17,728 bases of DNA from an archaeon (GTDB lineage Archaea > Iainarchaeota > Iainarchaeia > Iainarchaeales > CSSED10-239), in assembly GCA_023230325.1 (NCBI GenBank), contig JALNXN010000013.1, positions 1-17,728 on the forward strand, in the 5' to 3' direction. The position numbers and the translations under genes were made by a program. Under the pieces are notes generated by a model, which was given only the letters and a program-made list of their open reading frames with translations, made no database searches and was not told where the DNA came from. This document shows, one piece after another, positions 1-17,728 of the stretch; position 1 is the stretch's first letter; every line of letters starts with the position of its first letter.

Positions 1-126
1 TGAGTAGGATGCGAGCAATGAGCAAAAGTTTTTTCCGCCCGCCTTTCGAGAGAAAGGCGGCTCAAGCCAAATTTTTCGGCCCCGGGAGGGTGCCGAAAAA
101 TTTGCGGCCGCAAAACAAGATTTTTT
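1..126 (+). other. GC-rich hairpin block, possible structured RNA 3' end or dispersed repeat
   Basis: Bases 31-110 are 59% G+C, while nearby intergenic DNA (for example 1141-1200) is about 10%. Two near-perfect hairpins are visible. The first has a 9-bp stem 39-47/52-60 with a GAGA (GNRA) tetraloop. The second has a 13-bp stem 68-80/92-104 with an 11-nt loop. A 12-nt palindrome around GCGGCCGC (102-113) follows, then TTTTTT at 121-126. On the + strand this order (hairpins, then poly-T) fits the 3' end of a structured RNA or of an upstream transcript. I could not match it to tRNA, 5S, SRP RNA, RNase P RNA or C/D box RNA. It could equally be a dispersed repeat; it is cut by the window edge and its function is unknown. 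Confidence 0.45.
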
Positions 127-5953: not shown

Positions 5954-6358
5954 TTACTTAACTAATAGCTTAGCTGTGCTATCAGAATATCTCCAGTTTT
6001 TAGGAATTTTTCCTTCTTTAATATAATATTTTTTTAATCTATTAATTTTAGAAACAGTTAATTGATATCCTCTTTTTCCAGAAGTATCTTTTTTGTTACT
6101 ATCTTTATGTTTAATTAACTTTACTGCTTTTTTAATTAATGCTAACAAATCATCAGGCAACTTTTCAGTTTCCAGTTTTAGTTCCTTTTGGATTACACCA
6201 ATTTTTTTACCAAGTTCTTTTTTTGTACTTAGCACTTTGCCTTTTTTAAGTTCAAGTCCAATTTTTGCTTTTGAAGTTCCTTTTTTTGTAAGTTCTTCAA
6301 TTTTGCCATATATTTCGTCTTTGTTCATTTTTTCTTGTTTATCTACCATACTAATCAT
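5954..6358 (-). CDS. rps15p: 30S ribosomal protein S15P (uS15)
   Basis: This is a 16S rRNA-binding small-subunit protein of 134 residues. The archaeal insertion-type N-terminal helix (KDEIYGKIEELTKKG) and the core are visible: LPDDLLALIKKAVKLIKHK, then KRGYQLTVSKINRLKKYYI. The tail GKIPKNWRYS is also typical. It lacks the basic SGSKRP-like N-terminal arm of most archaeal S15P. Met1, Met4 (6349) and Met10 are possible starts. Met4 is attractive because ATGATTAGT just before it resembles the GTGATTAAC that precedes two other genes here (valS and the gene at 10922), so ATGATT may be a ribosome-binding site rather than the start. It is first in a four-gene operon; an AT-rich, TATA-like stretch lies at about 6420-6436. 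Confidence 0.95.
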   Translation of the reverse strand: MISMVDKQEKMNKDEIYGKIEELTKKGTSKAKIGLELKKGKVLSTKKELGKKIGVIQKELKLETEKLPDDLLALIKKAVKLIKHKDSNKKDTSGKRGYQLTVSKINRLKKYYIKEGKIPKNWRYSDSTAKLLVK

Positions 6359-6503
6359 ATTTTATAATTTTTTTAAAAAGAAATCCTTACTTTTTATTTT
6401 TTTTAAGGTACTATAATTTTTTTATTTAAAATATAGTTTATATAATATATTAATAAGCTACGATTTATTTATATATATTGTTGTTTTAGATTTCTAAGTA
6501 AAT

Positions 6504-7073
6504 TTAAAGATACCTTCCTCTTTTTTCTATAATTTCTATTTTTTTAATTATTTCTTTTTTGTTTGTTTCTTTAGAGTACCCTTCAAGTATTTGCTCCCAA
6601 AAGCTTTCTGTCTTTTTTTGACTTAGAAGAGTTTTTTTAAAAACCAAAAGATCAGTTGCTTTATCTTCTATCTTGGAAGAAACACTTCCAAGTCCAAAAT
6701 CTATAAAAAATATTTTGTTGTTATTGATTATTATGTTTATAAGGTTAAGGTCCCCATGTATAATTCCATGATCATGCAACTTTGAAATCTCTTTTCCAAT
6801 CTCTATCAATTTCTTTTTATGTGTGTTTTCATTTTGGAGATAGCTCATAATTATTTTATCTTCTCCCACATAATAGACTGTTGTGCAATTGATATTATAT
6901 TTTTTAATTTTTTTTAAAAGATTTGCTTCTTCTTTATTTCTTTTTTTAATGATCTTTTTATCTAATGTCTTATGTCTGTATTTTTTTGAGAGTCTTTGTT
7001 TAATAATTACATCTTTATTAAATATTTTTGTTTTGTATATTTTTGCTTCAGCACCATATGCTATAAGTTTCAT
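6504..7073 (-). CDS. bud32: KEOPS complex kinase/ATPase Bud32
   Basis: Bud32 is the small RIO-related kinase of KEOPS, which makes the N6-threonylcarbamoyladenosine (t6A37) modification of ANN-decoding tRNAs with Kae1. All family motifs are visible in 189 residues: the glycine-poor loop AYGAEAKIY (5-13), the ATP Lys K25 and K30-K31-YRHK. The acidic helix-C residue is E49, the catalytic HGDLNLIN is at 106-113 (D108), and the metal-binding DFG is at 125-127. EDKATDLLVFKK (136-147) follows. The C-terminal RGR (185-187) corresponds to the basic tail that contacts tRNA. It is a stand-alone gene, not fused to Kae1, and no Kae1, Pcc1 or Cgi121 gene is present here. It starts 6 nt after the stop of the upstream membrane-protein gene, so the two are cotranscribed. 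Confidence 0.94.
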   Translation of the reverse strand: MKLIAYGAEAKIYKTKIFNKDVIIKQRLSKKYRHKTLDKKIIKKRNKEEANLLKKIKKYNINCTTVYYVGEDKIIMSYLQNENTHKKKLIEIGKEISKLHDHGIIHGDLNLINIIINNNKIFFIDFGLGSVSSKIEDKATDLLVFKKTLLSQKKTESFWEQILEGYSKETNKKEIIKKIEIIEKRGRYL

Positions 7074-7079
7074 AAAAAA

Positions 7080-7586
7080 TCAGCTTTTGCAAACACTAAT
7101 GGCATTAAGTTCATTTTTTATATCTTGAAATTCTGTAGTTGATCTTAACTTCTCAATATACTTGTCCCAATATATTTTTTCAAAGTGTTTATTATTTTCT
7201 TCCTTTGTAAACAAGTTTAGAACATTTTTTTGTTTAGTTACAATTAAATTAATTTTAAGATATAGTTTATTAGAGATGCAGTTTCTGTCATTAAGAATTG
7301 TTAAGTTTATGCTGTCTGTAATCTCCTTAGCATCATTTGCTAAAATTACATAATTGATAATTGGAGTTGTGTATTCCTTTGTCTTAAGCTCATTAAGTTC
7401 TGCAATATAGTCTAGGTGGTTGGTTGGGACTAATACCTCTCCAGTAACCCCATACTTTTTATTTATTTTTTCTAACTTGTTAAGGTCTGTGCTTTTTACC
7501 TGCATTAAAAATAAGTACACTATTATTACAAGAATTATTATAAATATTATTTCTCCTAAAAAGGAAGTTTTTCTTCTTTCTAACAT
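7080..7586 (-). CDS. Single-pass membrane protein of unknown function
   Basis: I do not recognise a family. The 168 residues begin with a short basic stretch (LERRK), then one hydrophobic helix (about 10-29). A mixed alpha/beta domain of about 140 residues follows, so the topology is probably an anchored extracellular domain. There are two cysteines, C103 and the near-terminal C166, which could pair. One N-glycosylation sequon (NLT) is present. The gene lies between valS (37 nt upstream) and bud32 (6 nt downstream) on the same strand. The spacing supports cotranscription with bud32 but says nothing about function. Confidence 0.75.
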   Translation of the reverse strand: MLERRKTSFLGEIIFIIILVIIVYLFLMQVKSTDLNKLEKINKKYGVTGEVLVPTNHLDYIAELNELKTKEYTTPIINYVILANDAKEITDSINLTILNDRNCISNKLYLKINLIVTKQKNVLNLFTKEENNKHFEKIYWDKYIEKLRSTTEFQDIKNELNAISVCKS

Positions 7587-7623
7587 ATCTTGTCTTATTT
7601 TTAATATTATATAATATATACAC

Positions 7624-10086
7624 TTACAAAGCTTTTTTAATATTTAGTTTTATGCTTTCTTGCTCAATAGTGTGATTTTCAAGTTTTTCTGTAACATTAA
7701 TTGTTTTAGCTTTAGTAACTGCTCTAAGATCTTCTAAAAACTTAGAATAATCTTTTGTGCTTTCAATCTCTATAACCTCTAATTCTGTTTTAAGTGAAAT
7801 GTTCTCTGTTGACTTGTAGGTTCTAATCATGGAGATAATTTTTAAGATCTCTTCATATGTTTCTTTTGTGTTTTTTTCACACTCATTAGAAGTAACTTCT
7901 TTTGGCCACTCACAAACATGTATTGATTCTTTCTTTTCAATATCTTTAAAATAGTAACTATATAGCTCCTCAGTTGCAAATGGAAGATAAACAGAGTACA
8001 TCTTTAACACAGCATTAAAGGCATGATACAAGGTATATTGTGCAGACAGTCTTTCTTTAGCTCCTCTAGTCTCTGGATTATATAATCTGTTCTTTACAAT
8101 CTCTAAATAATTGTCACAAAGTTCTTTCCAAAAGAAAAGATTAATCTCTTGAAGTGCTTTTGAAAAATCAAAATTATTTAGGTTATTATCTGCATTTTTA
8201 ATTGTTTGATTTAATTTATTTAATAAACAGTTATCAAGTTCTTCTAGCTTTTCAATTTTTGTTTCTGGATTAAAGTCAATCAAGTGCATTAAAGTAAATT
8301 TAACAGAATTAAATAATTTTATGATTGTCTTTTGTCCAGTCAAGATTTCTTTTTCTGGATAGATTAAGTCTTGTCCAAGTTTACAGCTAGCAGACATATA
8401 CCTAATAGCATCTGCTCCAAATTTCTCAATAGCAGTTTCAGGATCAACACCATTACCTTTTGATTTTGACATCTTCTTTCCATCAGTTCCTAAGATCCAA
8501 CCGTTGATCATTGCTTTTTTCCAAGGTATTAGATCATAATGGAATTTTGATTTAACAATTGTATTAAATAACCAAAAGGAGATTATGTCGTGTCCTTGTG
8601 GTCTTAAGTCCATAGGTTTGTTTTTTATTAGTTGATAGGTCTTACTGTCTTTTATAAGACTTTTAACAATTGTGGGAGTAAGAGCGCTTGTTGCCCAGGT
8701 AGTCATAACATCCTTTTCTGCAAAAAACTCTGTGTGTCCGCATTTTGGGCATCTTTCAATTGGTGGTTTTGTAGTTTCTGGATCAACTGGTAAAGAGTCT
8801 TTGTTAGCAACAACTATTTCTTCACAGTTTTTACAATACCAGATTGGAAAGGTTATTCCTAACTTTATTTGTCTTGAGATACACCAATCCCAGCTAAGTC
8901 CATTTACCCAATTGTTATATCTTGTTTTATAAAATTTAGGAAGCCATTCAAATTCATTTCCCCAGTCTATCATTTCTTTTTTAATGTCTAGGTATTTGAT
9001 AAACCATTGTTTGGAGTTAATAAATTCAATTGGAGTTGAACATCTTTCATGTGTGTTTACCATGTGCTTGATTGGGGTTTGGGTTGTTAGAAGATTATTG
9101 TTTTTAAGGTCTTGGATTATTTTTTGTCTAGCTTCTGTTATTTTTAGGTCTTTATATTCTTTTGTTATTTCACTCATAAATCCACTTTTAGTAATTGCTT
9201 GCTTGATTGGAAGATTATACTTTTTTTGCCATTCCATGTCTGTTTGGTCTCCAAAAGTACAGCACATAACTAACCCTGTGCCTTTGTTAGGGTCTGCTTT
9301 TTCGTCTTCTAAGATTGGAACTTCAAAATCAAATAATGGAACTTTTGCTTTTTTTCCTAAGAATTTTTTATACCTTTCGTCATTAGGGTTGTAGAAAATA
9401 GCAACACAAGCAGGTAGAAGTTCTGGTCTAGTTGTTGCAACAATTAGGTCTTGGTCATCTATTTTAAAAATTATGTTATTAAAAGTAGAAGATATCTCTT
9501 CATCAACCAAGTCAACTTGTGCAATTGCTGTTTGGCAAGTGGTACACCACATGGTTGGTGCTTCTTTTCTATAGGTTTTTTCTTTTTCTAAAAGATCAAT
9601 AAATGAGAGTTGTGATATTTTTCTTGAGTTGTCATCTATGGTGTCATAAACAAGTGTCCAGTCAACACTGATTCCTAATCTTTTAAATTTATATAAATAG
9701 TCTTCTCTAAGTTCTATGTCTAAGGTCTTATAACAAAGCTCTAAGAAATCTTCTCTAGTCATCAATTGTGATTTTACACCTTTTATTTTTTCTATTAATT
9801 TTTGGGTTGGAAGACCATTGTCATCTGTGCCTAAAGGTAGTAGGACATTAAAGCCTTTTAGTCTTTTATATCTTGCAATAAAGTCCATTTGAGCTCCACC
9901 AAAGGCATGCCCCATATGTAATTTTCCAGAGATTGTTGGAGGTGGAGAGTCAATTGTAAAGATTGGTTTTTCTAAGTTGTCTCTATCAAAGGCATAAAGA
10001 TTTTTAGTTGACCAAACCTCTAGCCATTTTTTTTCAATTTCTTGTGTGTTGTATTTTTTCGGTAATTGTGAAATATCTAAATCCAT
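7624..10086 (-). CDS. valS: Valyl-tRNA synthetase, archaeal type
   Basis: This class I synthetase charges tRNA-Val with valine. Its 820 residues carry the HIGH motif as HMGH (57-60, in PPTISGKLHMGHAFGG) and the KMSKS motif as KMSKS (538-542, in DGKKMSKSKGNGVDPE). The editing (CP1) domain is present, with VATTRPELLPACVAIF (216-231) and KGTGLVMCCTFGDQTD (268-283), both typical of archaeal ValRS. Zinc-ligand cysteine pairs are at C181/C184, C418/C421 and C446/C449. The anticodon-binding helical domain follows from about 600. The C-terminal coiled coil of bacterial ValRS is absent, as in other archaea. The start is supported by GTGATT, complementary to the 16S rRNA tail, 4 nt upstream. Confidence 0.97.
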   Translation of the reverse strand: MDLDISQLPKKYNTQEIEKKWLEVWSTKNLYAFDRDNLEKPIFTIDSPPPTISGKLHMGHAFGGAQMDFIARYKRLKGFNVLLPLGTDDNGLPTQKLIEKIKGVKSQLMTREDFLELCYKTLDIELREDYLYKFKRLGISVDWTLVYDTIDDNSRKISQLSFIDLLEKEKTYRKEAPTMWCTTCQTAIAQVDLVDEEISSTFNNIIFKIDDQDLIVATTRPELLPACVAIFYNPNDERYKKFLGKKAKVPLFDFEVPILEDEKADPNKGTGLVMCCTFGDQTDMEWQKKYNLPIKQAITKSGFMSEITKEYKDLKITEARQKIIQDLKNNNLLTTQTPIKHMVNTHERCSTPIEFINSKQWFIKYLDIKKEMIDWGNEFEWLPKFYKTRYNNWVNGLSWDWCISRQIKLGITFPIWYCKNCEEIVVANKDSLPVDPETTKPPIERCPKCGHTEFFAEKDVMTTWATSALTPTIVKSLIKDSKTYQLIKNKPMDLRPQGHDIISFWLFNTIVKSKFHYDLIPWKKAMINGWILGTDGKKMSKSKGNGVDPETAIEKFGADAIRYMSASCKLGQDLIYPEKEILTGQKTIIKLFNSVKFTLMHLIDFNPETKIEKLEELDNCLLNKLNQTIKNADNNLNNFDFSKALQEINLFFWKELCDNYLEIVKNRLYNPETRGAKERLSAQYTLYHAFNAVLKMYSVYLPFATEELYSYYFKDIEKKESIHVCEWPKEVTSNECEKNTKETYEEILKIISMIRTYKSTENISLKTELEVIEIESTKDYSKFLEDLRAVTKAKTINVTEKLENHTIEQESIKLNIKKAL

Positions 10087-10298
10087 TGTTAATCACTCTC
10101 TAATATTATATATAATAATTACTACAAAGATATTATAAATATTATATATTAAAAAAAGTTGAAGAGTTTCAAATTAGAAATTAAAGGTGTTGTTTTTTTG
10201 GGAGCAGAGGGGTTGTGTTTTTCTAAATTTAGATTATAGTTTTTTTATGATTTTCAATATCCACAATATCTTTTTTTGGGTAAGTTAAATATTTTTTT
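10087..10298. other. Intergenic spacer with valS promoter and a G/T-rich stretch
   Basis: Near valS (10087-10150) the sequence is almost pure A/T with TATA-like runs, suited to a leftward promoter, and contains GTGATT (10091-10096, - strand). Further out, 10186-10223 is unlike its surroundings on the + strand. It holds two related G/T-rich segments (GGTGTTGTTTTTTT and GGGGTTGTGTTTTT) joined by GGGAGCAGA and followed by the palindrome CTAAATTTAG. No ORF covers it. It could be part of an RNA or of a regulatory site, but the sequence alone does not decide. Confidence 0.35.
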
Positions 10299-10922
10299 TC
10301 AACTATACTTCTTCACAAGGTCAAAGATCTTATTTTGTATCTTAATAGAAAACTCAATTTCTTTAATTTTTTTAGAAACTTGTTCCATTTTGGATTTAGC
10401 AGTTGTTTGTTTAAACTTTTGTTTCTTTTTACTATACTCTCCAATGTTTGTGTCTCTATAAACAATTGAGTTATTAACTGTTTCTTTAAGTTTACGTCTA
10501 TAATCTGGATCTACAAGAAAGGTATTAAACAAATGTTGATATTCAGGGTCCATTAGAATTTGGTCTGTTAGTTTAGAGTCAAGAACATCTTTTTTATAAT
10601 CTTTGTCTATCATTTTCTTAATTTTATGTTGCCAATATTTCTTTTTAAAAACCATGTTTGTAGCAATATTCTTATAATAGTTTTCTGCATTGTTCTTTGT
10701 TCTTTTCCAATACTGCTCTTCTTTTTTAAGATCTAAAAGACTTTCACTTAATTCATTTTGTTTTTTTTTAATCTCTGTAAGTTTAGGGTAAACTATTTTT
10801 CTATTCTCTACCTGTAAGACTTTTGTTTTAAAATAATAAATTAAATATTTTTTATCCTCTTCACTTAAAGTAACAGAATAATATTTTTCTAATTGTTCGA
10901 TTTTGTTAATTGTTTGTTTCAT
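10299..10922 (-). CDS. Charged, mostly helical protein of unknown function
   Basis: I do not recognise a family. The 207 residues are rich in Lys, Glu and Tyr, with no membrane segment or signal peptide, so it is probably cytoplasmic. Helical, coiled-coil-like stretches are likely around 45-110 and 165-205. The middle holds two related short units, MDPEYQHLFNTFL and VDPDYRRKLKETV. No cysteine or metal-binding cluster is visible. The start is well supported by GTGATTAACTATG, nearly identical to the valS start context. It is 212 nt upstream of valS on the same strand, but the spacer probably contains a separate valS promoter. Confidence 0.75.
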   Translation of the reverse strand: MKQTINKIEQLEKYYSVTLSEEDKKYLIYYFKTKVLQVENRKIVYPKLTEIKKKQNELSESLLDLKKEEQYWKRTKNNAENYYKNIATNMVFKKKYWQHKIKKMIDKDYKKDVLDSKLTDQILMDPEYQHLFNTFLVDPDYRRKLKETVNNSIVYRDTNIGEYSKKKQKFKQTTAKSKMEQVSKKIKEIEFSIKIQNKIFDLVKKYS

Positions 10923-11060
10923 AGTTAATCACTATTTGTTTATCTTAATACAATATACAACCAAATATATTTTTAAATACTAATTTTTTTACAAAATCCA
11001 AGGTATTAATAAATATTTTGCATTATTTAATATTTATACACAATTATTAAAATAAAAAAT

Positions 11061-11066
11061 GAGGTA
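11061..11066 (+). promoter_or_regulatory. Shine-Dalgarno GAGGTA before nac
   Basis: GAGGTA lies 6 nt before the nac ATG at 11073 and is one of the stronger ribosome-binding sites in the window. A TATA-like sequence (TTTAATATTTATA, about 11026-11038) lies upstream. Together they fix the nac start. Confidence 0.6.
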
Positions 11067-11072
11067 ATTTTT

Positions 11073-11417
11073 ATGATTCCAGGAATGGGTGGACTTGATC
11101 CAAGAAGAATAAATTCTATGATGAAACAGATGGGTATTGAAAACAAAGAGCTATCTGCAAAAAGAGTAATCATTGAACTAGAAGGAGATTCTAAAATAGT
11201 AATTAATAACCCATCAGTAACTGAAATTTCAATGCAAGGTCAAAAAACATACCAAGTAGCAGGAGAAATATCAGAAGAGAAACAATTAAAAATTCCAGAG
11301 GATGATGTAAATTTAGTTTCTACAACTGCAAAAGTGTCTTATGAAAAAGCAAAATTGACTTTAGAAAAAACAAAAGGAGATATTGCGCAGGCAATCTCAG
11401 AATTGGAAGAGAAATAA
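11073..11417 (+). CDS. nac: Nascent polypeptide-associated complex protein (archaeal NAC)
   Basis: This ribosome-associated chaperone binds nascent chains near the exit tunnel; archaea have a single alpha-type subunit that forms homodimers. It is 114 residues, normal length. The N-terminus MIPGMGGLDPRRINSMMKQM is diagnostic. It is followed by the beta-rich NAC domain (about 28-75, including VIINNPSV-like IVINNPSV and YQVAGE) and a C-terminal UBA-like helical domain (about 76-112, EDDVNLVSTTAKVSYEKAK). It is a single-gene unit on the + strand. Its stop lies 6 nt from the end of the convergent gene, so both transcripts must terminate inside each other's 3' regions. Confidence 0.96.
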   Translation: MIPGMGGLDPRRINSMMKQMGIENKELSAKRVIIELEGDSKIVINNPSVTEISMQGQKTYQVAGEISEEKQLKIPEDDVNLVSTTAKVSYEKAKLTLEKTKGDIAQAISELEEK

Positions 11418-11423
11418 TTTATT

Positions 11424-12731
11424 TTATTTTTCCTCTAATTGCACAAACATCAATTCATCTCTAATTGCAAAGGCATTAACAATCAAATCAAAATTACTTT
11501 TATTCTCGTCTTCTGGCCATAAAAGATGTGCAGTTGCGTATCTTTCTTTAAAAGTATAATCTATGTTATTTAGAGTTACTTTCAAAAGATCAAATTCTGC
11601 AAGTCTAGTCACATTTGTAATCTCTACTTCTTTAGTTTCTAATTTTTGAGAGATTGCTTCTAGATTTAAATCACCAGTATTAAATATAAGGTTGATTTGT
11701 TGTTTTGGCATATTAATAATTAAAGGGGTGCCTTCTATTTTTTCTGAAAGCTTTTGTTTAGTTTCCAGATACTGTATAAGATCATAACCCTCATTAAAGC
11801 TAACAATCAATTTACTTTCATTTTCATCAATCTGTGTGTCTTTAATGATTGTGCCATTTTCATCTTTAAGTGCTTGTAAATCTATTTTTAAACTTTCAAA
11901 GTTTTGATCTTCTAAAAGCTTATACTCTAAATTGTCTATAAATTTTATAGTAATCTCTAGATTTTCATCAACAAACAACTCTTCAATTTCTGAAAGGCTA
12001 ATGTTATTATCAATATTTGTTTTTGAAACAACTGTGTAAGAATCTAACCAATCACTTAAATCAGAATTAATTTCTCCAAAAACCATCTGTGGGCTACTAG
12101 AAAGATTTTGTGATTCTAGGATTAAAAATTGTGTTGGAGTTTCTCCTCTAAAGACAATCTGGATCTGTGCTAAGATTTGATCTTTTTTAAGTGTCTCAAT
12201 TCCCAAGATTGCTTCCATTTTCTCAATAGTCATTTGATAATCTTTGGTTTTGTTATCATCGCCTACAAGATCAATTGTTTTTTTAGGTAAAGACACTAAA
12301 CCCATTTGGTAGATTTCAGGTTCTTTTATAAAATTAAAATCATTAATCTTATTTACAATTTCTTCCTTTTTATTACCATTAATTATTATTTTTACAATTG
12401 CAACAATATTTCCATTAACATCTTTATTGAAGTTCACTGTTGGACTTTTAACTCCATCAATCTCATAAAATTTACCTTTAACTTCTTCAACATCATAAAT
12501 GTCGGTGTTACCTGCAACAATTATCTGTGGATATATTTCTAAAACATTTGAATCAATTTGTCCTAGGTAAACTTCTAATGGTAAATTAAAATCTGTGTCA
12601 ACTGGTTTGTTATCATCAACAACTGGAGTGTCACTATCAGGTCTTCCCCCTAGTGCAAAGCCAAATATAGAACCAATAAATAGAATAACAACAATTATAG
12701 AAACAACTGCTTCTGTAGATATTTTTTTCAT
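11424..12731 (-). CDS. Membrane-anchored, sequon-rich extracellular protein of unknown function
   Basis: I do not recognise a family. The 435 residues start with MKKISTEA and a hydrophobic helix (about 8-27) ending in FALGG. An Asp/Pro-rich linker (30-48) comes next, then a long acidic alpha/beta region without further membrane segments. The layout suggests an N-terminally anchored surface protein. Seven N-glycosylation sequons (NKT, NLS, NIS, NGT, NES, NVT, NKS) fit archaeal surface glycosylation. There is no cysteine. Repeated strand-helix-strand patterns hint at several ferredoxin-like domains, but I cannot delimit them reliably. The start is supported by GTGATTT 5 nt upstream. The C-terminus is acidic (LEEK), without an archaeosortase sorting signal. 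Confidence 0.8.
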   Translation of the reverse strand: MKKISTEAVVSIIVVILFIGSIFGFALGGRPDSDTPVVDDNKPVDTDFNLPLEVYLGQIDSNVLEIYPQIIVAGNTDIYDVEEVKGKFYEIDGVKSPTVNFNKDVNGNIVAIVKIIINGNKKEEIVNKINDFNFIKEPEIYQMGLVSLPKKTIDLVGDDNKTKDYQMTIEKMEAILGIETLKKDQILAQIQIVFRGETPTQFLILESQNLSSSPQMVFGEINSDLSDWLDSYTVVSKTNIDNNISLSEIEELFVDENLEITIKFIDNLEYKLLEDQNFESLKIDLQALKDENGTIIKDTQIDENESKLIVSFNEGYDLIQYLETKQKLSEKIEGTPLIINMPKQQINLIFNTGDLNLEAISQKLETKEVEITNVTRLAEFDLLKVTLNNIDYTFKERYATAHLLWPEDENKSNFDLIVNAFAIRDELMFVQLEEK

Positions 12732-12800
12732 AATTTAAATCACTTTTAATTTTTATATGTTTTTTATTTTTAAATATGTATATATATTATTGTTCACTTC

Positions 12801-12810
12801 TTTTTAAAAG
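12801..12810 (+). promoter_or_regulatory. TATA-like box for dus, leaderless start
   Basis: TTTTTAAAAG is centred about 27 nt before the dus ATG at 12834, the distance expected between a TATA box and the transcription start in archaea. No Shine-Dalgarno precedes this ATG. The mRNA is therefore probably leaderless. ATGs at 12815 and 12830 are in another frame and stop quickly. Confidence 0.5.
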
Positions 12811-12833
12811 TTTTATGTATCTGATAATTATGT

Positions 12834-13784
12834 ATGTCTTTTCAAATTTCAAAATATAAATTTAAATCAAGAGGTGTTTTAGCACCAATCTTAGATTATT
12901 CAACTTTACCTTTTAGATTACTTTGTAAAGATTATGGTGCTTCTTTAACATTTACAGAGATGGTGCACATTAAACAAGTTGTTCCTTTTGAAAAAGATTT
13001 AAGTAAGATTAGTTCATTAGATTCTTGTAAAGATGACAAGGTTACTGCTGTTCAATTAGTTGGAGATTTTACAGATAGAAAATTAACTTTAAAAGCAATT
13101 GAGGTAATAGATTCTCTAAAAGACTTTGATATTATAAATTTAAATTTAGGTTGTCCCTCAGGAAAGATTATTGCAGGAAACTCAGGCTCTTGTTTGATAA
13201 AGGATCTTTCTAAAGTCTTACCTGTAATAAAAGAAATAAAATCTGTTTCTAATAAACCAGTAACTGTAAAGACAAGGCTTGGTTTTTATGAAAATGAAAT
13301 TAATATTATTTCTAAAAAACTAATATCAACTGGAATTGATGGACTAGTGGTTCATGCAAGAAGAGCTGTTGACAATTACTCTGTAAAAGCAGAGGTTTCT
13401 TTTTTAAAGAAACTAAATAAGGAGATTTCAATTCCTTTTATCTATAATGGAGATGTGTCAAAAAACAATCTAAACTTATTTGATGACTTTTCAGCAATCA
13501 TGGTTGCTCGTGAGGCTTTAGGCAATCCTTACATCTTTACCCAGATTGATGATTATGATCTGCAGAAAGAAATTGAAGAGTATGATCTTGAAAAAAGAAA
13601 AAAAGCTTTTCTAGATTTTTTAAAAATATACAAAAAACATAAAATTCCTTTTCCAAAATTTAAATTAATAGTTGTTTCTTTTTTAAAGGATTTTCCAAAA
13701 GCTAGTCAACTAAGAGATGTTGTTTCTAAATCTAAAAATGAGATTGAATTAATTTCTGTAATTAAAGAAGAATTGTATTTATAA
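12834..13784 (+). CDS. dus: tRNA-dihydrouridine synthase
   Basis: This FMN-dependent enzyme reduces uridine to dihydrouridine in the tRNA D-loop. The 316-residue protein follows the Dus pattern: VLAPILDYSTLPFR (15-28) for FMN binding, TEMV (41-44) and VQLVGDF (73-79). The catalytic Cys is C107 in INLNLGCPSGKIIAGNSG. VTVKTRLGF, then VVHARRA with the catalytic-region histidine, then YNGDV and MVAREALGNPYIF for phosphate binding complete it. A short helical domain closes the protein. It is a monocistronic + strand gene, and its last codons (KEELYL and stop) form the first unit of a 25-bp tandem repeat. Which D-loop position it modifies cannot be read from the sequence. Confidence 0.94.
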   Translation: MSFQISKYKFKSRGVLAPILDYSTLPFRLLCKDYGASLTFTEMVHIKQVVPFEKDLSKISSLDSCKDDKVTAVQLVGDFTDRKLTLKAIEVIDSLKDFDIINLNLGCPSGKIIAGNSGSCLIKDLSKVLPVIKEIKSVSNKPVTVKTRLGFYENEINIISKKLISTGIDGLVVHARRAVDNYSVKAEVSFLKKLNKEISIPFIYNGDVSKNNLNLFDDFSAIMVAREALGNPYIFTQIDDYDLQKEIEEYDLEKRKKAFLDFLKIYKKHKIPFPKFKLIVVSFLKDFPKASQLRDVVSKSKNEIELISVIKEELYL

Positions 13785-13947
13785 GTTATAAGAAGAATTA
13801 TATTTACAAGTTGTAAGAAGAGTTATATTTACAAGTTATAAGAAGAATTTTATTTATAATTTATAAGAAGAGTTGTATTTATAATTTATAAGAAGAATTA
13901 TATTTACAATTTGTAAGAAGAATTGTATTTATAAGTTAAAGAAGAAT
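13765..13947. repeat. 25-bp tandem repeat, about 7.3 copies, across two convergent gene ends
   Basis: Seven units start at 13765, 13790, 13815, 13840, 13865, 13890 and 13915, followed by a partial unit from 13939. The unit begins AAGAAGAATTATATTTACAA and ends GTTGT or GTTAT. Variants are A/G, A/G/T, C/T, G/T and A/G at five positions. All units are 25 bp except the seventh (24 bp). The first unit encodes the last residues of dus and its stop; the last units include the stop and final Leu codons of the convergent gene. 25 is not a multiple of three, so the array did not grow as coding sequence. It appears to have grown by duplication of the dus 3' end. Confidence 0.93.
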
Positions 13948-14676
13948 CAGATAGACAAGAATAGAAATTAGTAAAATCCACAAAATTGATTTATAATTTT
14001 TTCTAAGCTGATCAAAAAGCCAAACAATACCTTTGCCAATACTATTAAAGATAATAAATATGTAGTTTGCAACTTTTTTTGGACTCTTAATATCTTCAAG
14101 CATTTCATAAAAAAGTTCCTTTTGAGTTAGTTCTTTTTCTTTTATTTTCTCAAAGTCATTAACTTCCCCAGTAATTGCATCTAGTTTTATTTTAGTTTTT
14201 AGAATCTTTAATTTCCAATTAGGAACAATTATTTCTTCAACACCACTTAAGAATACTTCTTCAATTTTCACATTATATTTTTGAGCTAAATAATTAGTAA
14301 TTGTTTTTTCTGCTTCTTTTTGGGAAATTATTGACTTTTTTAAAACTATTTGGGTTTTGTCTGTTTTTGGAATATGCAATTCTGCCATTATCCTTGGTTT
14401 TTCAACAGCAAAAAGTAAAACTACCTTTTCATTTATTTTGTTGCTTATGCTGTTAATTGCAATTTGACCGGTAATCTGTTCAAATTTACCATTATAATTA
14501 GAAAGAATATCGTAGTAACAAACCCAATAAGGTGTGAGAGTTAGATATAAACTTTTTGGGCTTATATCTAATTTGTAACCTTTTTTTTTGAGATTGGTTT
14601 TAATTATCTCTATAACTTGTTTAGGCTCCAGTTTAACTGGAAACCTTTTTTTATCTATTTGCATCTTAGATGTCAA
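13936..14676 (-). CDS. PepSY-like membrane protein downstream of sepF
   Basis: There is no firm family. The 246 residues seem to hold two PepSY/YpeB-like units. Residues about 16-77 have a helix, then LTPYWVCYYDI, then GQIAINSIS. Residues about 116-172 have SQKEAEKTITNYLAQKYN, then VPNWKLKIL, then LDAITGEV. The pattern of a helix followed by [VT]P-x-W strands and a D/N-x-x-x-G turn is typical of PepSY. The C-terminus carries an amphipathic or hydrophobic stretch (203-222) and a terminal membrane helix (230-246), so it is probably tail-anchored with the domain in the cytoplasm. It starts 2 nt after the sepF stop, so translation is coupled, and a link with cell division or SepF membrane complexes is plausible but unproven. 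Its last codons lie in the tandem repeat. Confidence 0.8.
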   Translation of the reverse strand: MTSKMQIDKKRFPVKLEPKQVIEIIKTNLKKKGYKLDISPKSLYLTLTPYWVCYYDILSNYNGKFEQITGQIAINSISNKINEKVVLLFAVEKPRIMAELHIPKTDKTQIVLKKSIISQKEAEKTITNYLAQKYNVKIEEVFLSGVEEIIVPNWKLKILKTKIKLDAITGEVNDFEKIKEKELTQKELFYEMLEDIKSPKKVANYIFIIFNSIGKGIVWLFDQLRKNYKSILWILLISILVYLILL

Positions 14677-14678
14677 AT

Positions 14679-15026
14679 TTATTTTATTTTTTTAATAATT
14701 TTTACTTTACTAGGAACAATTAGTAGTTTAGTTTTTGACATCATTGCGATATCTCCACCTTTATCAGTAATATACATCTTTAATTGTCCAACAAATTGCT
14801 TTGCTCTTTGTGGATTTCTTTTTGAGATCCCTTCAATATCAAGAATAATTAGATTTCTATCTCTTAGTTCTTTAATAACAGCATCAACTTCTACATTTGA
14901 TTGTAGACTAATTGGCTTAACATAAAAGTCAACATCTTCTATTTCTTCCTCAACATCCATATTGTTAATGAATTCATCTAGATCCACTTCTTCTTTTTTT
15001 GTAAACATTTTGTCAAATAAGGCCAT
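14679..15026 (-). CDS. sepF: Cell division protein SepF, archaeal type
   Basis: SepF anchors FtsZ filaments to the membrane in archaea that divide with FtsZ. The protein is 115 residues. The N-terminal MALFDKMF resembles the amphipathic membrane-binding helix, followed by an acidic linker (about 10-33). The SepF core (about 34-110) has VKPISLQSNVEVDAVIKEL, then LIILDIEGISKRNPQRAKQF, then GQLKMYITDKGGDIAMMSK and the final strand LLIVPSKVKI. The ISKRNP and GGDIA blocks are typical of the archaeal family. A strong Shine-Dalgarno, GAGGTG (15034-15039, - strand), lies 7 nt upstream. FtsZ is not encoded in the window. It is cotranscribed with a PepSY-like membrane protein. Confidence 0.92.
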   Translation of the reverse strand: MALFDKMFTKKEEVDLDEFINNMDVEEEIEDVDFYVKPISLQSNVEVDAVIKELRDRNLIILDIEGISKRNPQRAKQFVGQLKMYITDKGGDIAMMSKTKLLIVPSKVKIIKKIK

Positions 15027-15033
15027 TTCTCCC

Positions 15034-15039
15034 CACCTC
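15034..15039 (-). promoter_or_regulatory. Strong Shine-Dalgarno GAGGTG for sepF
   Basis: On the - strand GAGGTG precedes the sepF ATG by 7 nt. It is the best match in the window to the complement of the archaeal 16S rRNA tail. It fixes the sepF start and suggests efficient translation. Confidence 0.65.
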
Positions 15040-15203
15040 GAAGTTTTGATTATTTATAGCTAAATAACTTATAATATTAATGCACCAAAATATTTAAATA
15101 TAAAATGTATTTTGAGTTTTTAAAATTTTAAAAAAACTTCTCTGTTTTTATGTTTTTTTGTACTTAATTTTGTAATAATTAAATATAAAGTAAGGTAATT
15201 TAT

Positions 15204-16361
15204 ATGGAAGATATAGTATTAATTCATTATAATGAAATTGCAATTAAGGGAAAGAATAGAAATTTTTTTGAACAGAAATTAATTAACCATATTAAAAGAG
15301 TTTTAAAAGAGGATCTACTTTTAATAAAAAAAAGATATGGCTTATTTTATTGTAAATTTAAGAAAGGCTCTAAAGATAGAGTGTGTAAGTTATTAAAGAT
15401 GGTTCCTGGAATTGCACATTTCTCATTTGCTATCATATCAGATTTAGATCTAGAGAAAATAAAAAAAGATTCTTTAGAATTTTTAAAAGAAAAAGATTTT
15501 CTAACATTTAAAGTTTTATGTAAAAGAAGTTATAAAAAATTTAAATATAAATCAATGGAAGTAAATATGCTTATTGGAGAGTATATTTTAAATAATTTAA
15601 AAAGGAAGGTAGATATTAAAAACCCAGATTTAAATTTATATATTGAAATTGGAGAAAAGGAAGTTTTCATATTTTCAAAAAAAATAAAAGGACTTGGAGG
15701 TTTACCAGTTGGAAGTTCATCAAAAATAATTTGTTCTCTTTCTGGAGGAATTGATTCTCCTGTTTCTGCATTTAAGATGATCAAAAGAGGGTGTGATGTA
15801 GTCTATGTTCATCTCTATAATAATACACTTGTAAAAAGAGAAGTTCTTTCTAAAATAAGAAACATTGTAGAAAAATTAAACAACTATCAATTAAATTCCA
15901 AATTATATGTTGTTCCTTTTTCAGAAATTCAGAAAGAAATAATTGCAAACATTAGTTCTGAATATAGGATGATAATTTATAGAAGATTTATGTTTAGAGT
16001 AATTAATGCCATATCAGTTATTGAAAATTGTAAAGGAGTAGTAACTGGGGATTCTATGGGGCAGGTTGCCTCTCAAACCTTAGAAAATATATTTTCAATT
16101 TATGATGTGAGCACCATCCCTATATTGACACCACTTATTGGGAGTGATAAGCAGGAGATTATAGTTGTTGCAAAAGAGATAGGTACTTATGAGATTTCAA
16201 TAATTCCTTACCCTGATTGTTGTTCATTTATGTTATCTTTACATCCTCAGACCAAATCTAATTTAGATGAAATTAAAAAGTTAGAAGAAAGTATTTTAAA
16301 AAAAGAATTACTAATAGAAAATGCAATTAGTAAGGCAGATGTTTTTGAATTTAAAATTTAA
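15204..16361 (+). CDS. thiI: tRNA 4-thiouridylation enzyme ThiI
   Basis: ThiI adenylates and thiolates U8 of tRNA (s4U8), and in some organisms also supports thiazole synthesis. The 385 residues have the N-terminal ferredoxin-like domain (IHYNEIAIKGKNRNFFE, 7-23) and a THUMP domain (about 60-160). The PP-loop ATPase domain carries SGGIDS at 180-185 and GDSMGQVASQTLENI at 282-296. The rhodanese domain of enterobacterial ThiI is absent. The likely thiolation cysteines are C339-C340 in PYPDCCSF. No CxxC is present near residues 250-280, where methanogen ThiI carries one. The start is supported by AAGGTAAT about 4 nt upstream. It diverges from sepF across 177 bp and is followed by a T-rich terminator. 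Confidence 0.95.
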   Translation: MEDIVLIHYNEIAIKGKNRNFFEQKLINHIKRVLKEDLLLIKKRYGLFYCKFKKGSKDRVCKLLKMVPGIAHFSFAIISDLDLEKIKKDSLEFLKEKDFLTFKVLCKRSYKKFKYKSMEVNMLIGEYILNNLKRKVDIKNPDLNLYIEIGEKEVFIFSKKIKGLGGLPVGSSSKIICSLSGGIDSPVSAFKMIKRGCDVVYVHLYNNTLVKREVLSKIRNIVEKLNNYQLNSKLYVVPFSEIQKEIIANISSEYRMIIYRRFMFRVINAISVIENCKGVVTGDSMGQVASQTLENIFSIYDVSTIPILTPLIGSDKQEIIVVAKEIGTYEISIIPYPDCCSFMLSLHPQTKSNLDEIKKLEESILKKELLIENAISKADVFEFKI

Positions 16362-16463: not shown

Positions 16464-17728
16464 ATGACAGAAAATAAAGCTAAACATACTTTTAATAACA
16501 AAAAAGCAATTTCCCCATTAATTGCAACCATCCTTTTGGTTGTTGTTGCAGTAGCATTAATTGCCATAGTCTTAACTTGGGGAAAGACCTTTACAAGAGA
16601 GTCTTTGGATAAGACAACTGATTTTGCAGATCTAAAACCCTCAGACTCAGCTTTCTTTTTAACCATAGAGCCTGGAATCAATGGTAGGCTCTTTGCAAAG
16701 TTCAACCCGCCAGTAAACACCATTGAACAAATAACAATTGTTGGTTATTCTTTATTAGACATTCCAAGAGTTCCCTTAGAACCACCAGTAACCATAAAAG
16801 CACAGAGTCGGTTACCACTAGACTTAGGAATAGTCCAATCCCCTTTTGATCTAGTTTTATATTTAGATGATGACACCATAATAACAAAAACAGGTGTAAA
16901 AACAATCAACAGACAACCAAGCAAATGTCCAGAAGGTTTCATCCTAGTTCCAGGTAACTTCTTATATGGAACCACAAACGGAAACAGTATGGGTTTTTGT
17001 GTTGCCAAATATGAAATGAAAGCAGACAAAGATGGAGATGGTATAGGAGACCTGGTTTCAGACTACCCAGCAATGACTTCCACTTATAATACCTGGTATT
17101 TCTCAGAAGACTCAAACATCACTTTAGTCTCAACTCCTGAAGGGTCTCCAATAGCAAACATTATACAAACAGAAGCAATTACAGCATGTGAATCTATAGG
17201 TGGTCATCTAATCACCAACAATGAATGGATGACCCTTGCAAGAAACATAGAACTTGTTCCTTCTAATTGGTCAGGAGGAGTTGTTGGAGACGGTTATTTG
17301 CCAAGAGGCAACTCCTCCTCTTCAAGTGCTATGGATGGTTTTAATGAATTATCAGGTTGGACTAAACGTACCCTTACCTTAACAAATGGAGAAGTTATTT
17401 GGGATTTAGTTGGGAATGTTTGGGAGTGGACAAATGATAGTATTTTGCGAAAAGATCAACCAGATGGTTTCAATGATGTAGATGATAGTAGTTACATAGG
17501 TGATGAATGGTTTGATTATTCAAAAGGTGGGGGTATTGGGAGATATATAACTTCAGATAATTTAGGTGATACTACTTTAGAATATAAAGATTTATTTTTA
17601 TTAACAAGTAATAAATATAATGCGAATAATAATGGTGTTGGAAGAATATATACAAATAGTAATAGTACTTCAACACCTCTTCGAGTGTTTTTGCGGGGCG
17701 GGTCGTGGAACTATGGCTCTGACTCTGG
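16464..17728 (+). CDS. Type IV pilin-leader protein with FGE/C-type-lectin fold, partial (3' end missing)
   Basis: The reading frame is open from the ATG at 16464 to the window end (421 full codons). Residues 13-40 are an archaeal type IV pilin leader: KKA then ISPLIATILLVVVAVALIAI, with processing expected between A15 and I16. Residues 43-150 form a beta-rich stalk-like region. From C155 the FGE-sulfatase (formylglycine-generating enzyme) fold begins. It has CPEGFILVPGNF, GFCVAKYEMKA (C179), a calcium-loop-like DKDGDGIGD (188-196), ACESIGGHLITNNEWMTLA (C242), WDLVGNVWEW (313-322) and finally RVFLRGGSWNYGSDSG (407-422). The two FGE catalytic cysteines align with Y417 and G422, so it is probably not a formylglycine enzyme but a binding/display protein on a pilus or the cell surface. 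The last 53 bases are 58% GC and resemble the start of a DGR variable region. Codon use changes near residue 290. Confidence 0.88.
   Translation, partial: MTENKAKHTFNNKKAISPLIATILLVVVAVALIAIVLTWGKTFTRESLDKTTDFADLKPSDSAFFLTIEPGINGRLFAKFNPPVNTIEQITIVGYSLLDIPRVPLEPPVTIKAQSRLPLDLGIVQSPFDLVLYLDDDTIITKTGVKTINRQPSKCPEGFILVPGNFLYGTTNGNSMGFCVAKYEMKADKDGDGIGDLVSDYPAMTSTYNTWYFSEDSNITLVSTPEGSPIANIIQTEAITACESIGGHLITNNEWMTLARNIELVPSNWSGGVVGDGYLPRGNSSSSSAMDGFNELSGWTKRTLTLTNGEVIWDLVGNVWEWTNDSILRKDQPDGFNDVDDSSYIGDEWFDYSKGGGIGRYITSDNLGDTTLEYKDLFLLTSNKYNANNNGVGRIYTNSNSTSTPLRVFLRGGSWNYGSDS

Follow-up and report, generated by a model that had tools for sequence, protein, structure and literature searches.

Homology to related archaea suggests that an archaeal contig ends within the variable region of a diversity-generating retroelement target bearing a pilin-type N-terminus

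The stretch of DNA analysed here (the window) is the archaeal contig JALNXN010000013.1, whose last gene is a putative target of a diversity-generating retroelement (DGR), a system with a variable region (VR) in the target gene, a template repeat (TR), and a reverse transcriptase (RT). According to the database entry of its last protein, the window of 17,728 bp is the entire contig and its right edge is the contig end, a case that the initial annotation, made from the sequence alone, had considered. The target gene (16464..17728, + strand) is an open reading frame (ORF) that remains open at the window end, with its 3′ end cut by the contig end after 421 complete codons. A protein search revealed 576 relatives of the encoded protein at E ≤ 0.001, and the figures on listed proteins given below rest on the best 120 of these. 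The closest full-length homologue among the matches listed, P0002, was 94% identical and 25 residues longer at the C-terminus. The N-terminus of the window protein corresponds to a predicted class III signal peptide (residues 1–15; 16464..16508, +), in which cleavage is expected after ...NKKA according to the usual rule for such signal peptides, and to the archaellin/type IV pilin N-terminal domain TIGR02537, starting at residue 12 (residues 12–42; 16497..16589, +; E 1.3e-6, 27.8 bits, cut-off 20), while the Pfam family Pilin_N scored 15.8 bits, under its cut-off of 25.2. Two features expected of an archaeal type IV pilin, a class III signal peptide and a pilin N-terminal domain, are thus predicted in this protein; this pilin-type N-terminus was absent from the initial annotation. 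In the predicted model of P0002, whose numbering is common to both proteins, a long N-terminal helix (residues 18–49; 16515..16610, +) is followed by a beta-sandwich (residues 66–145; 16659..16898, +). From residue 153 onward (16920..17728, +, 3′ end incomplete) lies a head of the formylglycine-generating enzyme (FGE) type of C-type-lectin fold, as first proposed: the FGE-sulfatase family PF03781 matched the window protein over its cut-off (E 4.9e-6), and the P0002 model is similar to three DGR proteins, namely TaqVP, Mtd, and TvpA. The assignment of the head draws on this modelled structure, and the likeness to the enzyme is one of fold alone, with no activity claimed.

The G+C figures reported at first for the right edge were both reproduced, with 31 of the 53 bases in 17676–17728 being G or C versus 17% in 17581–17640. 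Among the 17,676 overlapping 53-mers of the window, 23 contained at least 31 G+C, and the remaining 22 start at positions 32–60, in the GC-rich left end. This left contig end of the AT-rich window (30–112) also contains inverted repeats and gave no tRNA or Rfam match. In L001 and L002, two loci of related archaea described below, the VR has a G+C content of 57% versus 33% in the rest of the gene, and since the jump recurs at both, we consider it to belong to the element itself. The left limit of the visible VR was placed at V408 (17685..17728, +) by homology to the TR/VR repeats in these loci, and only its first ~44 bases can be seen in the window. The last codons were read identically on recheck, namely F409, L410, R411, G412, G413, S414 (TCG), W415, N416 (AAC), Y417 (TAT), G418, S419 (TCT), D420 (GAC), and S421, among which N416 and Y417 (17709..17714, +) and D420 (17721..17723, +) correspond to the hypervariable columns 416, 417, and 420.

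The tails of the closest full-length relatives were of the type RVFLRGGSW..GS.SGLLAL.L...SG.L....GLRCAVVP, a motif present in 68 of the best 120 relatives, 64 of which share the same tail length. In the 13 tail columns with an entropy above 2.6 bits, the residues K, E, Q, M, or W occupied 6 of 832 cells. When the 68-row alignment was considered (the counts of alignment A1 leave out P0013), these residues occurred in 9 of 865 hypervariable VR cells versus 905 of 3955 (23%) in 63 columns further upstream whose entropies span the same range, a comparison whose Fisher P values treat related rows as independent. Such a scarcity at variable sites is expected of NNY codons derived from AAY template codons. 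Compared directly with the window, five relatives (P0002, P0003, P0004, P0014, P0019) differed at N416, Y417, and D420 in 13 of 15 cells and at the remaining ten VR residues in 3 of 50 cells (two in P0003, one in P0014); upstream residues differed in 278 of 1855 cells, a count that takes in P0019 despite its different type of N-terminus. The earlier proposal that these three codons are what adenine mutagenesis leaves behind is well supported by this pattern and by the NNY residue set. From these comparisons, the 3′ end of the gene appears to hold a VR in which the adenine-derived codons have changed.

A scan of species genomes yielded 79 loci, the three best being L002 in the complete chromosome of Candidatus Forterrea multitransposorum, a member of the Iainarchaeota, and L001 and L003 (ainarchaeum metagenome-assembled genome); L110 is a second Forterrea cassette. 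In L001, L002, and L110, the target is followed in the same direction by an ORF of 128–136 aa, a bAvd gene (PF22296 over cut-off in all three), the TR, and the RT, and the TR/VR pairs differ at TR adenines; for per-base TR/VR counts, the cores had been selected for at most one non-A change, which biases their P values. Homologous genes of related archaea are thus followed immediately by Avd, TR, and RT, which supports the DGR reading of the initial annotation. The RT was identified as RVT_1 in L002 and L110, while that of L001, cut by a contig end after its first 128 residues, was recognized through its likeness to the L110 RT. The sole NCBIfam name obtained for the RT was a sub-threshold group II maturase. 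In each of the best 120 RT relatives, the motif [ILVM]G[NS]xxSQ, presumably a mark of DGR RTs, is present and QGxxxSP is absent. Past the 421-aa ATPase-like gene neighbouring the RT of L002, there is a near-exact copy of ~115 bp of the RT gene 3′ end (L002:13711-13828 / 15260-15377), so that the ATPase-like gene looks as if it had been inserted with duplication of this end; the pair was rejected as a TR/VR pair, being a plain repeat. The TR codes for Asn at 12 sites, which would permit 15 to the power 12, or about 1.3e14, different heads. A hairpin follows the TR in L001 (z −3.7) and L002 (z −5.5), and no hairpin such as that of BPP-1 was found after the VR of L001, the one VR folded (z 1.05).

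The small ORF between target and bAvd (L001:1809-2219, L002:11633-12019, L110:6687-7082) is predicted to be a four-helix, Avd-like protein. It gave no Pfam match over a cut-off and has few relatives, 15 at E ≤ 0.001 in a very large protein set, two of which are labelled PF05635, a family described as resembling Avd (PMC10053308). The model of the small ORF product (predicted local distance difference test, pLDDT, 85) forms a bundle of helices that is matched best by S23-type proteins, followed by the Avd structures 4dwl and 8ub7 with template modelling (TM) scores of 0.72–0.74 by target length, no structural match falling below E 0.001. On this model, we read the small ORF as a putative second Avd. 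Among the best 120 of each list, six other targets and listed RTs were on contigs of equal size (235843, 13382, 9399, 8917, 6970, and 4407), from which we infer that they lie on the same contigs; for P0002 and P0003, whose contigs are 6888 and 3942 bp long, and for P0004, no equal-size contig with a listed RT was found within the same lists.

Regarding the spread of such systems, the TR/VR detector was positive for the archaeal loci L001, L002, and L110 and negative for L003, L018, and L083, while matches in L111 and L114 were attributed to pilin-gene repetition or to low-complexity sequence and left uncounted. In Forterrea, L111:4561-9334 is composed of three adjoining pilin-type genes, the middle one being a full-length target with an FGE head whose own TR was not found. 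A TR/VR pair of at least 80 bp was present in 11 of 44 further loci within L004–L047 (L005, L006, L008, L010, L011, L017, L021, L027, L028, L030, and L035), compared with one of 32 control loci, L048–L079 (L062, 93 bp), four of which had any match. In three of the seven bacterial TR/VR loci whose targets were inspected (L006, L008, and L021), the pair lies in FGE-head proteins with the N-methyl pilin motif over cut-off. Target matches were found in 10 of 53 genomes searched around G001, being full-length in G001 and G002 alone and, in most of the other matching genomes, limited to pilin N-termini. Pilus-assembly families were over cut-off in the genomes of two relatives (T2SSE, 5 and 5; T2SSF, 6/7 and 7/9), as was the A24 peptidase (2/3 and 2/2). 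Ten window genes (5954–16361) are collinear with Forterrea 808000–822000, the valyl-tRNA synthetase gene being elsewhere in Forterrea, and no DGR follows thiI there, so the lineages differ in where the cassette sits. Beside thiI, and with the same neighbours in Forterrea, the window bears a SepF-like cell-division gene (14679–15026, −; PF04472, E 1.8e-9).

Traces of activity were obtained by comparing L001 and L110, two loci from different genomes that share 93% identity across 3.4 kb. Between the two TRs, 2 of 126 sites differ, and neither is an adenine; between the two VRs, 18 sites differ, 16 of them at TR adenines and the other two at the TR markers themselves. At both marker sites, each VR carries the base of its own TR, so each VR is a mutated copy of the TR in the same genome. 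Overall, the VR is no more divergent than the gene (86% vs. 89%). Mutagenic retrohoming is known here by its trace, the TR markers common to TR and VR within two genomes.

In agreement with the initial annotation, neither an RT nor a template repeat was detected in the window, where RT and Avd queries from relatives gave a best tblastn E of 0.25 and TR queries from relatives matched 10 bases at most. The same annotation had proposed that, if the window end is a contig end, collapse of the assembly in a hypervariable repeat would explain it. This part stands as an explanation that fits the case: in L003 (5576–5960), inspected by eye, the VR runs directly into the 3′ flank of the TR, as known from L002, and the TR and both avd genes are gone, a junction that reflects either a repeat collapsed by the assembler or recombination, and contig L024 ends inside its VR. 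As a general rule, a contig break in the VR was dropped, since L024 is the only such case among 32 loci. By analogy with the relatives, the same Avd–TR–RT cassette probably lies past the contig end in the window's own genome.

Taken together, the right edge of the window is very probably where the DGR VR of a pilin-like surface protein begins, in an archaeon related to the Iainarchaeota, the window gene being filed as a putative DGR target by homology. The product is best read as an adhesin, exposed on a pilus or at the membrane, with a tip that mutagenic retrohoming rewrites. The cassette of Avd-type genes, TR, and RT would continue beyond the contig end; the RT would copy the TR RNA with errors at adenines, and the mutated cDNA would replace the VR. 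A prepilin peptidase would then cut the N-terminus, and the protein would be presented with its variable head outward, either on a type IV pilus or at the membrane. There the head could bind ligands that change over time, perhaps those of partner cells, of surfaces, or of viruses.

Among the alternatives, the one that survives best is that the pilin-like helix only serves to hold the DGR target in the membrane, the protein never becoming part of a pilus, which we consider a serious contender, although the less probable course. At ~447 residues, the protein would be large for a pilin, which suits such an anchor. Most cellular DGR targets are also described as membrane-anchored in Roux 2021 (PMC8144416). 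Against this, the N-terminus exceeds a curated archaellin/pilin cut-off, and both relatives' genomes encode the pilus-assembly families. It is improbable that the target has its own cassette lost or elsewhere, the VR being a relic or diversified in trans from another locus. L111, the third full-length Forterrea target, lacks a TR/VR pair of its own distinguishable from pilin-gene repeats, L003 as assembled is devoid of TR and avd, and Forterrea thiI adjoins no DGR, all of which would be in line with such a loss; however, the window VR differs from relatives up to 94% identical, which indicates recent diversification, and in three of the relatives' targets the cassette is directly downstream. 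An ordinary FGE-domain surface protein with a tail evolving fast under positive selection without any DGR, and a contig end there by chance, would suit the missing RT and TR and the rarity of contig ends in VRs (1/32), but is hardly credible given that hypervariable VR columns are almost without K/E/Q/M/W while equally variable upstream columns have 23%, and that three homologous genes come with TR/VR pairs, Avd-type genes, and RT.

The same head was also encountered in a viral setting. Ten relatives with another N-terminus were scanned, and Laminin_G_3 was over cut-off in P0089 and under it in P0114, the others having FGE only. P0093, a fibre-type protein with the same FGE/VR head, is located on the viral contig L116 (L116:2521-4026). 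The N-terminal 178 residues of P0019 are 85% identical to the fibre-type P0055 (family of P0093), while its head is 80% identical to P0002, of the window's clade, and at most 67% identical to other fibre-type heads; among eight proteins compared, P0019 alone showed a clear discord between N-terminus and head. In L083 (2925–4310), which bears portal, maturation-protease, and major-head matches, a pilin-type 5′ part gives way, within the head, to 7.7 kb of sequence that shares 97.8% identity with L116. The reading of this locus as a pilin DGR target beside a virus was set aside, because from inside the head onward it matches the viral contig, and it is either a chimera from an assembly error enabled by the common head or a real recombinant. 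No TR was found in L116 or L083, the phage records searched with P0093 and P0002 gave no match, and no relatives of the RT P0125 were confirmed in viral contigs. We therefore treat the virus link as a lead, not a result, and the exchange of one hypervariable head module between the pili of these archaea and the fibres of their viruses as rather unlikely. If true, host and virus would have a single DGR scaffold in common, and fibres of the virus might even be diversified in trans by a cassette of the host.

Among known systems, DGRs from archaea and archaeal viruses were described in 2015, followed in 2016 by the structure of AvpA (PMC4372165, PMC5006420). The nanoarchaeal DGRs with AvpA and that of the archaeal virus ANMV-1 are likewise archaeal, with AAY-rich variable sites (PMC4372165, PMC5006420), and AvpA, unlike the head described here, is said to fall outside the FGE subtype (PMC6328139). 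The words pilin and flagellin did not occur in the accessible text of PMC4372165 or PMC5006420 on nanoarchaeal DGRs. Mtd of the Bordetella phage BPP-1 DGR is a phage receptor-binding protein (PMC5006420) and has no pilin part, and TaqVP of the Thermus aquaticus DGR (PDB 5vf4) is described as a single-domain prophage protein, whereas the head described here is archaeal, is preceded by a beta-sandwich and a pilin-type N-terminus, and comes with two Avd-type genes. The N-terminal pilin signal and the long helix followed by a beta domain are shared with archaeal type IV pili (8fk7, 6nav, 6w8u). Our search of the literature found no work pairing a DGR with a prepilin; nevertheless, the idea of a pilin-like DGR target is not new in itself, since 'putative pilin structures' are mentioned for DGR proteins linked to DUF1566 in PMC6642488, with reference to Paul 2017. 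What sets the present case apart is that the FGE head has an archaeal pilin as its carrier and is accompanied by two genes of the Avd type. According to Roux 2021 (PMC8144416), the DGR targets of archaeal clade 5 and of clade 2 of the candidate phyla radiation (CPR) are typically without a recognizable membrane or other conserved domain, and whether this lack is a detection problem was left open there. The archaeal target family described here has a pilin-type N-terminus, which bears on that question only if the loci belong to those clades.

A bare contig edge could thus be resolved by homology, and the pilin-type N-terminus lifts the case above a routine DGR target. Such a system would offer small-genome microbes a concrete, testable route to keep altering what their surface fibres bind.
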